Made by a program: the position numbers and the translations under genes. 64,000 nucleotides of DNA from NCBI GenBank assembly GCA_009667805.1, contig CM019063.1:352990942-353054941 (forward strand). Direction: 5' to 3'. Every line of letters begins with the position of its first letter. The first letter of the stretch is position 1. The DNA comes from Leptobrachium leishanense (lineage: Eukaryota > Chordata > Amphibia > Anura > Megophryidae). The notes under the pieces are model-generated. The model had not been told where the DNA came from and did not search any database. It saw only the letters and a program-made list of their open reading frames with translations. This document shows positions 682-56,649 of this stretch, in pieces.

Positions 682-1451
682 CAGGGGTGTGGAAATTTAA
701 AAAAAATCTACTTGTACAACGGACTAAGTAGTAGTCCAATCTACTTGTCCCTCAGGACGATCAACTTGTCCTGATAATTTCCCAGCTCATGGATATTGCC
801 CCAGCTCATGGATATTGCCCCAGCTCATGGATATATGCCCCAGCTCATGGATATATGCCCCAGCTCATGGATATTGCCCCAGCTCATGGATACTGTCCCA
901 GCTCATGGATACTGCCCCAGCTCATTGATACTGCCCCAGCTCACACATGGATTTGGCCCAGCTCATGGATATTGCCACTCCACTCTCATGGATATTGCCC
1001 CGAGCTCAGACCCCAGACCAGACATGGGGCTGCTGTTTGAATGCTCTATCGGCATTCAGACAGCCGCCCCTGGAGCTCTCCGGCATACTTACCTTCCCGA
1101 GCAGCGCCGATGAAGTCTTCGCGCCTGCGCTCTTTGAAGGACCCCCAGCCGTAATCACGTGGGTCTCCCACATGATCGCGGCTGGGTCCTTCAACGTGCG
1201 GAAGCGCGGAGACTTTGTCGGCGCCGCTCGGGAAGGTAAGTATGCTGGAGAGCTCCAGGGGCGGCTGTCTGAATGCCAATAGAGCATTCAAACAGCCGCC
1301 CAAGCCCCTCGGATGCCGGCAAGCCGGCTCAATGCCGGCTTCCGGTATCGGGGGCGTCCCTGTAATTAGTCCGCAGTCCAGCGGGCTTCTAGCCCGCCGG
1401 GCTGCATCTAAAAAAAAACTACTCGCCCGGATCTTCATTCCCACACCCCTG
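682..1451. mobile_element. TIR element CAGGGGTGTGG, nested in Tc1
   Basis: A 770-bp insertion with inverted ends CAGGGGTGTGG / CCACACCCCTG, flanked by AATAA at 677-681 and 1452-1456; the Tc1 coding sequence resumes directly after it. The interior has three parts. The first is an A/T-rich end block (AAATCTACTTGT), also seen as a relic at 21180-21270. The second is a minisatellite (783-1015). The third is a ~250-bp GC-rich palindrome (about 1040-1290) whose arms carry GGAGAGCTCCAGGGGCGGCTG and its complement around a CACGTG centre. No transposase is present, so it is non-autonomous. The superfamily is uncertain. Confidence 0.8.
783..1015. repeat. Minisatellite, CCAGCTCATGGATATTGCC-type
   Basis: About eleven degenerate tandem units of ~18-21 bp with core CCCCAGCTCATGGATATTG, some with TACTG or ATATG variants. 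The same core, in either orientation, recurs in arrays at 22190, 33848, 34215, 35765, 39283, 41800 and, more diverged, 55208. Confidence 0.9.
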
Positions 1452-2373
1452 AATAAGGAAAACATTAAACAAGACTGGAGTACATGGGAGGACACCACGG
1501 ACGAAGCCATTGCTGTCCAAAAAGAATATTGCAGCACGTCTGAAGTTTGCAAAAGAGCACCTGGATGTTCCACAGCACTACTGGCAAAATATTCTGTGGA
1601 CAGATGAAACCAAAATTGAGTTGTTTGGAAAAAACGCAACACTATGTGTGGAGAAAAAAAGGCACAGCACACCAAGATCAAAACCTCATCCCCACTGTAA
1701 AACATGGCGGAGGGAGCATCATGGTTTGGGGCTGCTTTGCTGCCTCAGGGCCTGGACGGATTGTTGTCATTGATGGAAAAATTAATTCCAGACATTTTGC
1801 AGGAAATCGTAAGACCATCTGTCCGCCAACTGAAGCTCCGCAGAGGATGGGTGATGCAACAGGACAATGATCCAAAGCATACAAGTAATTCAACAAAAGA
1901 ATGGCTTCAACAAAACAAAATACACCTTCTGGAGTGGCCCAGTCAGAGTCCTGACCTCAACCCGATTGATATGCTGTGGCATGACCTTAAGAGAGCGATT
2001 CACACCAGACATCCCAAGAATATTGCTACACTGAAACAGTTTTGTGAAGAGTAGTGGTCCAAAATTACTCCAGTTCGTTGTGCAGGTCTGATCTGCAACT
2101 ACAGGAAACGTTTGGTTGAGGTTATTGCTGCCAAAGGAGGGTCAACAAGTTATTAAGTCCAAAGGTTCACATACTTTTTCCACCCTGCACTGTGAATGTT
2201 TACATGTTCTGTTCAATAAAAACATGAAAACATATGTTTGTGTTGTATTATTTTAAGCAGACTGTGTTTTTCAAATTGTTGTGACTTAGATGAAGATCAG
2301 AGCACATTTTATGACCAATTCATGCAAAACTCCACGTAATCCCAAAGGGTTCACATACCTTTTCTTGCAACTG

Positions 2374-2954
2374 TACAGTATATATTTCTATATCAAATTT
2401 GCCCCTTAGCACCAATAGCAAAAGGAAGTAACTGCATTATTTGTGCCTGTAGAATATGGATACATCAATATTTTAGCTCAATGTTGAGGTTTAACGTTCG
2501 AGTGGTTCTTTAAGAAAATAGAGAAAAGGAAACAAAAAGCACAACATATACAATACACACAATTTTATCTCATTTTCTGATCTATCATTTTCTGTTTCTT
2601 CTTCCTCTCCATAATTGTAATTTTTCTCATTGACTTCTAAAAACGTAAGGTTTGCACGGATTGAAACAAGCGTTTCTATCCTTTCACAGGTTAGTTTGCT
2701 TGTTGATTTGGTATGAATATTAGCAAGCATAGAGCAGATTTTTTCACAGCAGCAGCAGAACATGCAGGAATCCGCACGAAGTGAGATGCAAGAGGTGTGA
2801 GAGGTCGTTTTGTGCAGAGACCTTGCCACCGTGTTGCTGGAGGGATATGTTTTGCAGAATCCTAAACTATACTGGACAGAACATTAATATGGATCAAATG
2901 GGGACAAATTTAACCTCTTAATTGAAAGTTAAGGCCTGAGAAGACAGAAACTAG
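2374..2954. other. No gene seen
   Basis: AT-rich sequence between the Tc1 right end and the gypsy 5' LTR. A 112-codon reading frame on the minus strand has no recognisable motif and I do not call it. I see no repeat ends here. Confidence 0.5.
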
Positions 2955-3878
2955 TGTAGCGCTGCTTAAAAATTGTGTTTGCTGCATTTAATTATTATGG
3001 CCACCAGAGGGAGACAGAGACATAATGGACTATGCTGGACACAAACTGAACTACAATTTCCATCATGCTTTGCATGAGTACAGGAAGTGGGTGGTGTAGG
3101 AAGAGGAAAGACATCAGCAGCCTCGTGCAAGGGAGAGGCAGAGTGAGCTGAGCGGTGAAAGGTGGAGGACGCACGTGAAACTGACAGGGATCGTGACCAG
3201 GCCAGAGTACAGGCGCTGCCTCAATGGTGCTGGAGATCGAGACGGTGACCCTGCAGAGACCTACCTACGCACCGCTGAGAGGTCTGAATGATAATCTGGT
3301 TCCGGCTGGACCCCGAGTTAGGAGACCGCGATGATCCATTGGGAGTGCAGGCGGTAGATCATTGTATGCAGTGTGGAGATCGGACAAGCAGGGAGCGGAT
3401 CCGGTGGCCCAGTATACAGCGGAGAAAATCCTTGATCGGGTGCTGAACAGATTGTCTATCGGATGGGTGAGAGGCCTCCCAGGCCGCAGCTCCAAAAATA
3501 AGAAATGCATTGTTTAAATCCACAGGGCCCCAACGTGACTAGTCGAAGATTTGTTTGTTTCATTCACTGGCCAGTTGAATACAGTACCCGGGTACCCATA
3601 CTCATTTATACACATACACATTTTTGAGCTATTACTTACAGGACTTACACTCCAGAACTGAGGGGGTTAATCTTTTTCTTTTGCCGCAGCGTGTTTTTCC
3701 CGCGTTATGAAATCCTGTCATTTAAATACCGTACCTACGTTATATATGCTGCTTTATTGGGATCAGTAAAGAATATAATCTATAAAAATCCACAACAGTG
3801 CTGGTGTATATTTATTCCCTAGTGCGGTGAGACTAACTCGAGGTTAAATCAGCGGCTCCTCCGGGAGTGAACGCTACA
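2955..3878 (+). repeat. 5' LTR of the gypsy element
   Basis: It begins TGTAGCGCTGC and ends AGTGAACGCTACA, giving TG...CA termini with short inverted ends TGTAGCG / CGCTACA. It matches 11823-12754 over its whole length. A likely core promoter is the TTATATATGCTGC stretch near 3740, and AATATAATC follows near 3772. Confidence 0.95.
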
Positions 3879-55040: not shown

Positions 55041-55207
55041 TGCAGTCATGCAGTGTTTATGCAGGTAAAAAAAACTGCATGCATTTTGCGTTCTCGCAAC
55101 TCGTCACATGGTTCCCCCAGGCGAGCGCCCAAGCTCCATGTGCTGCCGGAAGTTAACAGGGAGCCGAACACGCGGCGCACAGAACACAGCGGCGCACAGA
55201 GGTGAGC

Positions 55208-56543
55208 TGCGGCGCAGTATCCATGTGCTGGGGGCAGTATATCCGTGTGCTGGGGGCAGTATATCCGTGTGCTGGGGGCAGTATATCCGTGTGCTGGGGG
55301 CAGTATATCCGTGTGCTGGGGCAGTATATCCGTGTGCTGGGGCAGTATATCCGTGTGCTGGGGGCAGTATATCGTGTGCTGGGGGCAGTATATCCGTGTG
55401 GGGGGCAGTATATCCGTGTGCTGGGGGCAGTATATCCGTGTGCTGGGGCAGTATATCCGTGTGCTGGGGCAGTATATCCGTGTGCTGGGGGCAGTATATC
55501 CGTGTGCTGGGGCAGTATATCCGTGTGCTGGGGCAGTATATCCGTGTGCTGGGGGCAGTATATCCGTGTGCTGGGGGCAGTATATCCGTGTGCTGGGGGC
55601 AGTATATCCGTGTGCGGGGCAGTATATCCGTGTGCTGGGGGCAGTATATCCGTGTGCTGGGGGCAGTATATCCGTGTGCTGGGGGCAGTATATCCGTGTG
55701 CTGGGGGCAGTATATCCGTGTGCTGGGGGCAGTATATCCGTGTGCTGGGGGCAGTATATCCGTGTGCTGGGGCAGTATATCCGTGTGCTGGGGCAGTATA
55801 TCCGTGTGCTGGGGCAGTATATCCGTGTGCTGGGGGCAGTATATCCGTGTGCTGGGGGCAGTATATCGTGTGCTGGGGCAGTATATCCGTGTGTGCTGGG
55901 GGCAGTATATCCGTGTGCTGGGGCAGTATATCCGTGTGCTGGGGGCAGTATATCCGTGTGCTGGGGGCAGTATATCCGTGTGCTGGGGGCAGTATATCCG
56001 TGTGCTGGGGGCAGTATATCCGTGTGCTGGGGGCAGTATATCCGTGTGCTGGGGGCAGTATATCCGTGTGCTGGGGGCAGTATATCCGTGTGCTGGGGCA
56101 GTATATCCGTGTGCTGGGGGCAGTATATCCGTGTGCTGGGGCAGTATTCCGTGTGCTGGGGGCAGTATATCGTGTGCTGGGGCAGTATATCCGTGTGCTG
56201 GGGGCAGTATATCCGTGTGCTGGGGGCAGTATATCCGTGTGCTGGGGCAGTATATCCGTGTGCTGGGGGCAGTATATCCGTGTGCTGGGGGCAGTATATC
56301 CGTGTGCTGGGGGCAGTATATCCGTGTGCTGGGGGCAGTATATCCGTGTGCTGGGGGCAGTATATCCGTGTGCTGGGGGCAGTATATCCGTGTGCTGGGG
56401 GCAGTATATCCGTGTGCTGGGGGCAGTATATCCGTGTGCTGGGGCAGTATATCCGTGTGCTGGGGCAGTATATCCGTGTGCTGGGGGCAGTATATCCGTG
56501 TGCTGGGGGCAGCATATCCGTGTGCTGGGGGCAGCATATCCAT
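55208..56543. repeat. 21-22-bp minisatellite, ~60 copies
   Basis: Unit core CAGTATATCCGTGTGCTGGG with four or five Gs; length variants alternate irregularly, and a few units lack a base or two. The first unit reads ATATCCATGTGCTGGGGG-like, linking it to the CATGG/GAGCTGGGG family. Very long open frames on both strands are artefacts of stop-free units. Confidence 0.95.
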
Positions 56544-56649
56544 TTAGAATGTATGTAGCATGTTTGCAAAAGCAAAAACAATTGGCTAAATCGCAATATT
56601 CATTCAAGAAATCGCAATAGGATTATTTTGTCAATATTGCACAGCCCTA

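Follow-up and report, generated by a model that had tools for sequence, protein, structure and literature searches.

Introduction

It is customary to regard each miniature inverted-repeat transposable element (MITE) family as derived by deletion from a single parent. In corals, the CMITEs are MITE families with different terminal inverted repeats (TIRs) that have a conserved internal region of unknown origin in common (PMC2872659). A comparable arrangement was analyzed here in a stretch of 64,000 nucleotides from the frog Leptobrachium leishanense (assembly GCA_009667805.1, contig CM019063.1, positions 352,990,942 to 353,054,941; hereafter the window), where one minisatellite family was found inside several kinds of non-autonomous element. 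The CMITEs are alike in combining different TIRs with a common interior, but their TTAA duplications place them in one superfamily, and the available text does not describe the common region of 75 bases as a minisatellite (PMC2872659). The elements of the window, in contrast, have three kinds of target duplication and share a tandem array, in one case together with a palindrome.

MITE-borne satellite arrays of variable length occur in Xenopus, in Xmix/Xstir and in the Tc1/mariner MITE miDNA4, and for miDNA4 the capture of a pre-existing tandem repeat has been proposed; as far as the available text of these reports goes, each repeat is tied to one MITE family and does not extend across TIR families (PMC9659126, PMC12628747). 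Foreign interiors are acquired by hAT and Tc1/mariner TIR elements, those of frogs included (e.g., hAT-N8_XT), according to the work on Pack-TIRs, gap-filling, and FoSTeST, where template switching with microhomology was proposed for filler capture in animals; the fillers described in the accessible part of that work are pieces of genes, whereas here the interior of one transposon would fill another (PMC8277862).

Modular structures have also been described outside these groups. The Cg_HINE Helentrons of oysters combine related flanks with unrelated tandem repeats, a fixed repeat orientation, and a palindrome in the right flank, but they have subterminal repeats instead of TIRs and target duplications, and their modules mix within one superfamily in the portion of the account available (PMC7492417). 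In bivalve satellites and pearl-type MITEs, described as a network of satellites and mobile elements, palindromes likewise lie at or near repeat junctions: 13 of 16 breakpoints of one satellite fell in its longer palindrome, and DTC84 has a conserved palindrome near the repeat junction. The palindromes of the counted case, however, are 10-12 bp long and lie within monomers, unlike long hairpins beside one array (PMC5139131, available text). For Drosophila Galileo, remodelling by tandem repeats and recruited sequence was reported and gap repair with template switching was discussed, but its repeats lie in its own long TIRs, and the available text mentions no repeat common to several superfamilies (PMC4168063). 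No report of one minisatellite across TIR superfamilies was found in a literature search whose coverage excluded most subscription papers. The apparent novelty lies in the occurrence of one and the same minisatellite across 5-bp, 8-bp, and TA duplication types, one of the carriers having in addition the palindrome and tail of another family.

The explanation favored here, with somewhat more confidence than doubt, is that the minisatellite is a passenger in non-autonomous elements of at least three, probably four, unrelated TIR types, and that it spread by exchange of internal modules and not by descent of whole elements.

One minisatellite family in elements with unrelated termini

All results refer to the window, with one to three copies per element family. 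The carriers were named E1 to E7, and E8 denotes the far piece of the E7 right array (Table 1). A 20-mer core had 18 matches at three or fewer mismatches, compared with a mean of 0.00 in 100 shuffles, and eight arrays with units of 18-28 bp were found independently by Tandem Repeats Finder (TRF). A ninth, decayed array was located in E4 at 53958, where about two units remain; an earlier note on this DNA had marked a trace there. The unit is approximately GCCCCAGCTC(ACA)CATGGATATT; on the strand CATGGATATTGCCCC it can be written as about GCCCC(C)AG(G)CTC(ACA/TCA)CATGGATAT(AT)TT, except that the E6 unit reads GCCCCCAGCACACGGATATACT.

Unit consensuses of the eight arrays (E4 left out) were compared in rotations and on both strands, with 200 shuffles per pair. 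In 27 of 28 pairs the similarity was higher than in any of the 200 shuffles; E3-E6, the remaining pair, scored 22, below its best shuffle (23). None of the 17 control pairs involving two unrelated tandem arrays of the window exceeded its shuffles. The arrays of E3 and E5 have an exact block of 38 nt over two units in common, and the E4 remnant is an exact match to an E3 unit. Unit sequence and length otherwise vary freely. The weakest and most diverged member is the E6 array, where ATGGAT occurs only twice, at the array edges, and ACGGAT is found in 56 units. Homogenization of the array for an altered unit, with survival of older units at both margins, would account for this pattern. The similarity of the arrays in the window is thus far above what chance would give for G/C-rich minisatellites.

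Exact target duplications flank five of the carriers, E1 to E5, and these together with the TIRs ruled out a Helitron or Helentron with central repeats. E2, E3, and E4 have hAT-type TIRs, TAGGG(A/T)TGCACCGATAC (TAGGG(A/T)TGCAC(C/A)GATAC), with three different 8-bp duplications that are exact in all three copies. E5, filed as a Tc1/mariner-type MITE, has inverted ends of 25 nt, 96% identical including the flanking TA, with TA on both sides; E1, of the CAGGGGTGTGG type, has a 5-bp duplication. Uninterrupted copies of the target exist within the window for the insertions of E2 (22032), E3 (38674), and E5 (41478). That of E2 is a paralogous empty site near 32349; E3 and E5 interrupt units of a 186-bp satellite, of which the intact form is present. 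In E6, an 8-bp target duplication was not found, as the flanks CCCCCCAT and CCCCGGAC differ; this element may be decayed or rearranged and was not filed as a confirmed hAT insertion. The superfamily names hAT, Tc1, and mariner, as used for the elements of this window, are our assumption from TIR and duplication types and not from a transposase: no Pfam match to one was obtained in a scan that covered only 8 open reading frames (ORFs) of the window.

Accordingly, the array is present in at least three unrelated TIR types (8-bp, 5-bp, and TA duplication), and E6 is probably a fourth. The earlier note had placed arrays with the same core inside four TIR families: the placement in different families was borne out, and no kinship among the ends of these families was seen in this window, but the count of four stands firmly for three only, because the flanks of E6 are unmatched and its array is diverged. 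Its further statement that the core also occurs in the satellite block was correct, since E7 consists of an array, a palindrome, and an inverted array within the 186-bp satellite. The E7 right array resumes at 35765-35931 after an interruption of 1.07 kb, a segment (34694-35764) that contains a 45-bp tandem repeat. No TIR was recognized in E7. At 32501-32617 lies part of the left end of the TAGGGATGCACCGATAC hAT MITE, lacking the first 17 bases and broken at a TA by an apparent end that we take to be of Tc1 type. As this fragment is in the expected orientation 1.2 kb upstream, E7 may be what is left of a broken hAT MITE.

Viral contigs contained no exact match to the core and none to a motif at the E5 array border. 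Among 1118 candidates from public proteins, none matched the translated array at E 0.001, and no Rfam match was found in the window at gathering thresholds. When three units were folded as single-strand DNA, every one of 200 shuffles folded more strongly, whichever strand was used, and the idea of stable structure in the arrays themselves was rejected.

Modular composition of the carriers

For the six elements E1 to E6, every pair was compared separately at the left end, the palindrome, and the right end, and these three modules differed in their sets of relatives. Common descent of whole elements, which the earlier note had held unable to explain the sharing, is thus indeed excluded as its explanation.

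The clearest case is E1, which is a chimera with the array, palindrome, and tail of a hAT-type MITE between the TIRs of a CAGGGGTGTGG element. In comparisons with the other five elements, no relative was found for its left 101 bp or for its right 97 bp. Its array matched that of E3 at 79% over 263 (BLAST), and its tail, which finishes with GGTATCGG, agrees with that of E3 at every one of 49 bp. E1, E2, E3, and E4 have a tail of about 62 bp in common; E2 retains it at 81% over 62 bp, E4 was aligned over it, and in E2 and E3 it is followed by the remaining hAT right end. Because of this continuation, and because GTATCGG/CCGATAC recurs in the hAT-MITE ends, the tail belongs to the hAT MITE and is of foreign origin in E1. 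The structure is Pack-TIR-like, in that the interior of E1 matches the interior of E3/E4 and the ends do not. The E1 array starts at the E3-type distal first unit (CCCAGCTCATGGAT), beside a common ATAATTT, a 7-bp match at one breakpoint that was noticed after the fact.

The hAT MITEs are mosaics as well. At the left end they agree to 97-99% (for E2-E3, 99% over 138 bp without gaps counted), but E2 and E3 have unrelated palindromes and right ends at 79%. Of the 24 parsed E3 units, 23 were closer to E5 than to E2 (11 of 12 types, sign test p=0.006), and for all 19 E5 units the nearer array was that of E3 and not that of E2 (7 of 7 types, p=0.016). Since left ends, arrays, and palindromes differ in their relatives, the module histories disagree with the TIR histories, a disagreement that is directly testable genome-wide.

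Movement of modules between non-autonomous elements is thus well supported. In the proposed mechanism, the array would be carried along within a family by the transposase of that family, and a transfer between families would occur when repair, or replication that has stalled, copies the interior of one element into another. Gap repair following excision, or replication halted at a hairpin-forming palindrome, would be interrupted and would switch template to another element; strong hairpins are plausible stall sites. The repeat array would offer homology in many registers and so a junction at which left and right halves recombine, and would afterwards expand or contract by slippage or unequal exchange. 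By such a route the CAGGGGTGTGG element would have taken up the interior of a TAGGGATGCACCGATAC hAT-type MITE, namely array, palindrome, and subterminal tail, possibly as one block and in the direction from hAT to E1. The earlier note had proposed template switching between non-autonomous transposons; movement of modules between them is well founded, and the switching we infer, the one ATAATTT match being consistent with it.

If array and palindrome do pass between elements of different transposases, non-autonomous elements would form a reticulate network, and a minisatellite could be spread through a genome by several unrelated carriers simultaneously. Its dispersal despite its own immobility would thereby be accounted for, and classification by internal sequence would become unsafe.

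Several observations weigh against module exchange as set out above. The identity between the E1 and E3 palindromes drops towards the array, from about 0.95 at the tail to about 0.65 (with gaps as mismatches, 0.62-0.78 in the first six 40-column windows and 0.90-0.95 in the last three). The best BLAST match of the E1 array is not E3 but E5, at 87% over 228, and of the six E1 units three were closer to E5, one to E3, and two were ties. As the E1 array is not closer to E3, the array and palindrome of E1 may not have arrived together. With no array-free or autonomous relatives of E1 and E5 for comparison, the breakpoints are placed less precisely than to the single nucleotide. In shuffled comparisons the palindromes at 22616, 41549, 54299, and 33992 matched no other, so that those of E2, E5, E6, and E7 have no detectable common origin. 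E3 units were not significantly closer to E1 than to E2 (6 vs 4 types, p=0.75), and the sign test overstates independence because arrays evolve in concert. Exact unit types common to different arrays numbered two of 59, one of which spans TIR families. Some of the disagreement between histories could stem from a more rapid turnover of the E2 array, which, with one to three copies per combination, is not distinguishable from exchange.

Some of these points would be expected if each TIR family had independently and repeatedly captured the array from a dispersed satellite pool, with no exchange of arrays between elements. This alternative, which we consider rather unlikely though the most serious of the rivals, gains from the presence of the repeat at 33852-34693 and 35765-35931 in a satellite block without recognized TIRs, from the differences in palindromes between families, and from the E1 array being no closer to E3 than to E5. 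It leaves unexplained that E1 and E3 share both the palindrome and the hAT subterminal tail, and its supposed source in the satellite block may itself be the broken hAT MITE marked by the fragment at 32501-32617, 1.2 kb upstream.

The sharing between E1 and E3 could instead stem from nested insertion, in which a hAT MITE entered the CAGGGGTGTGG element (and others) and later lost both of its ends. Nested events are frequent here, as E3 and E5 lie in satellite units and E1 in a sequence that we take to be Tc1-like. However, two separate deletions, of about 150-190 bp and about 80-100 bp, would be needed that spared the ends of E1, and E1 showed no remnant of either hAT TIR; an origin of this kind is improbable.

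Palindromes beside the arrays

All eight arrays considered (E1-E6 and two of E7) lie within 200 bp of a long palindrome, at distances of 2, 5, 15, 19, 19, 56, 76, and 164 bp. Random placement put a mean of 1.5 of eight arrays near a palindrome, with a maximum of 7 in 20,000 trials, though this comparison counts separately the palindromes of E1, E3, and E4, which depend on one another. Conversely, seven of the ten palindromic loci of the window adjoin an array and three do not, and of nine other tandem arrays three also lie within 200 bp of a palindrome, these being satellite pieces beside E3, E5, and E7. The C-rich array strand runs 5' to 3' towards the palindrome at all seven loci, and in E7 it does so from either side. 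As E1 to E4 are connected, no more than four of these agreements count as independent (about 1 in 16 by chance).

Homology above shuffles was limited to three of 15 palindrome pairs, with gaps left out of the identities: E1-E3 (85% over 248 aligned bases), E1-E4 (86% over 239), and E3-E4 (90%). The E7 palindrome had no match against any of the six others, and an origin of all palindromes from one ancestor found no support in the shuffled comparisons. The single cassette of array plus palindrome that the earlier note saw moving through four TIR families therefore does not hold: only the array is common, and a joint block is found across families once, in E1. The same note had described the palindromes as adjoining the arrays, as GC-rich, and as often containing CACGTG. 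Adjacency is general but homology is not; six of the seven palindromes have 59-66% GC, the one at 54299 having 46%; and CACGTG is present in five of the seven, three of which are homologous to one another. Hairpin folds were strong, with DNA z-scores of -11.6 to -17.2 in five of six segments; the E1 segment gave -4.0, the folded segment being only half of its palindrome.

The uniform polarity and the strong hairpins would both be accommodated by a more specific version of module exchange, in which the common minisatellite is the crossover site through which hAT-type, TA-target, and 5-bp-duplication elements swap ends and interiors, hairpins cause stalling, and the polarity is a footprint of the direction of copying. 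We put this forward tentatively, as a possibility with the balance on the side of doubt.

A further possibility is that array and palindrome form a functional module that aids transposition, replication, or escape from silencing and was selected in unrelated elements. The association of all eight arrays with palindromes against a random mean of 1.5, the uniform polarity at all seven loci, and the equivalent placement of non-homologous palindromes are in its favor. Against it stand the free variation of the unit in sequence and length (18-28 bp), the near absence of the array from E4 (loss after insertion being possible), the small number of independent polarity agreements (four at most, 1 in 16 by chance), the three of ten palindromic loci without an array, and the three of nine other tandem arrays that are also near a palindrome. 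Selection for such a module seems quite improbable, slightly more so than nested insertion, although a useful function of array or palindrome, which the earlier note had offered beside template switching, is by itself neither supported nor excluded. Finally, an independent origin of similar G/C-rich minisatellites, conceivable for E6 with its most diverged consensus and its E3-E6 score not above all shuffles, is hardly credible given the 27 of 28 pairs above 200 of 200 shuffles, the exact 38-nt block of E3 and E5, and the restriction of ATGGAT to the edges of an E6 array with 56 ACGGAT units, and for the arrays of E1, E2, E3, E5, and E7 it is largely refuted.

Some further features of the palindromes were recorded. 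At 1027-1301, 38794-39266, 53515-53939, and 22616-22911, the observed/expected ratio of CpG is 0.9-1.0, compared with 0.6 for the window. The palindrome arms end outward in AAGGTAAGTAT (E1, E3, E4) or AGGGTGAGTAT (E2), which resemble 5' splice sites by what we take to be their consensus. The palindromes might be read as promoters with splice donors (GGTAAGTAT outward in E1, E3, and E4; GGTGAGTAT in E2), but this could be chance. The edge of the E3 palindrome, ACTTACCT, was also considered for a resemblance to the 5' end of U1 RNA, an idea that was dropped. Another palindrome, with arms of 181 nt that are 99% complementary, lies at 24038-24435 and has no minisatellite beside it.

Features of the window

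Table 1. Positions of the carrier elements, their arrays and palindromes, and the arrays called by TRF (window coordinates).
Feature	Position	Strand	Remarks
E1, non-autonomous element	682..1451	+	15-bp TIRs CAGGGGTGTGGAAAT/ATTCCCACACCCCTG, one mismatch; 5-bp target duplication AATAA
E1 array	783..1008	+	mostly 19-20-bp units
E1 palindrome	1027..1301	.	118-nt arms, 91%; homologous to E3/E4 palindromes
E1 tail	1303..1351	+	49 bp identical to E3; ends in hAT-MITE subterminal motif GGTATCGG
E2, hAT-type MITE	22032..23055	+	TIR TAGGGATGCACCGATAC; 8-bp target duplication GTATATTT
E2 array	22180..22611	+	20-21-bp units
E2 palindrome	22616..22911	.	unrelated to E3/E4 palindrome except last bases of outer arm
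E3, hAT-type MITE of the E2 family	38674..40061	-	target duplication ATAGAGAA; in 186-bp satellite
E3 array	39281..39866	-	18-23-bp units
E3 double palindrome	38794..39266	.	
E4, hAT-type MITE	53334..54146	-	target duplication CCAAAATC; double palindrome; array down to about two units
E5, MITE	41478..42304	-	TIR CCGTATATACTCGGGTATAA; TA target duplication; in 186-bp satellite
E5 array	41802..42206	-	18-23-bp units
E5 palindrome	41549..41726	.	no detectable relative among other palindromes
E6, element	54210..56649	-	TIRs TAGGGCTG(C/T)GCA; diverged 22-bp array 55218-56541; nested palindromes 54299-55049
E7	33852..34693	.	array, palindrome 33992-34139, inverted array; inside 186-bp satellite block
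TRF arrays	781-1008; 22180-22611; 33846-33990; 34195-34693		TRF
TRF arrays, continued	35765-35931; 39281-39866; 41848-42185; 55218-56541		TRF

The 186-bp satellite forms a block of arrays in opposite orientations at 33073-45604, the left part being inverted relative to 36703 onward. Its outer ends bear matching inverted variant units (CCACTTGTTTCAAYGGTAAAATATGAATAAGTA), and the whole resembles a foldback-type structure of very large size that received E3 and E5 as insertions. Beyond this block, at 45736-46747, lies a tandem array of about 40 copies of a 25-bp unit (98%) that is unrelated to the minisatellite.

Two retroelements were also observed. One, at 2953-12755, is of the long terminal repeat type, with direct repeats at 2953-3879 and 11821-12755 that are 93.8% identical and, between them, ORFs with PNMA-like, reverse transcriptase, and integrase domains (Pfam). 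The other, at 25509-27599, is of a different retroelement type and was recognized from a long ORF whose match to a reverse transcriptase domain (RVT_1, E 7.5e-08) is weak.

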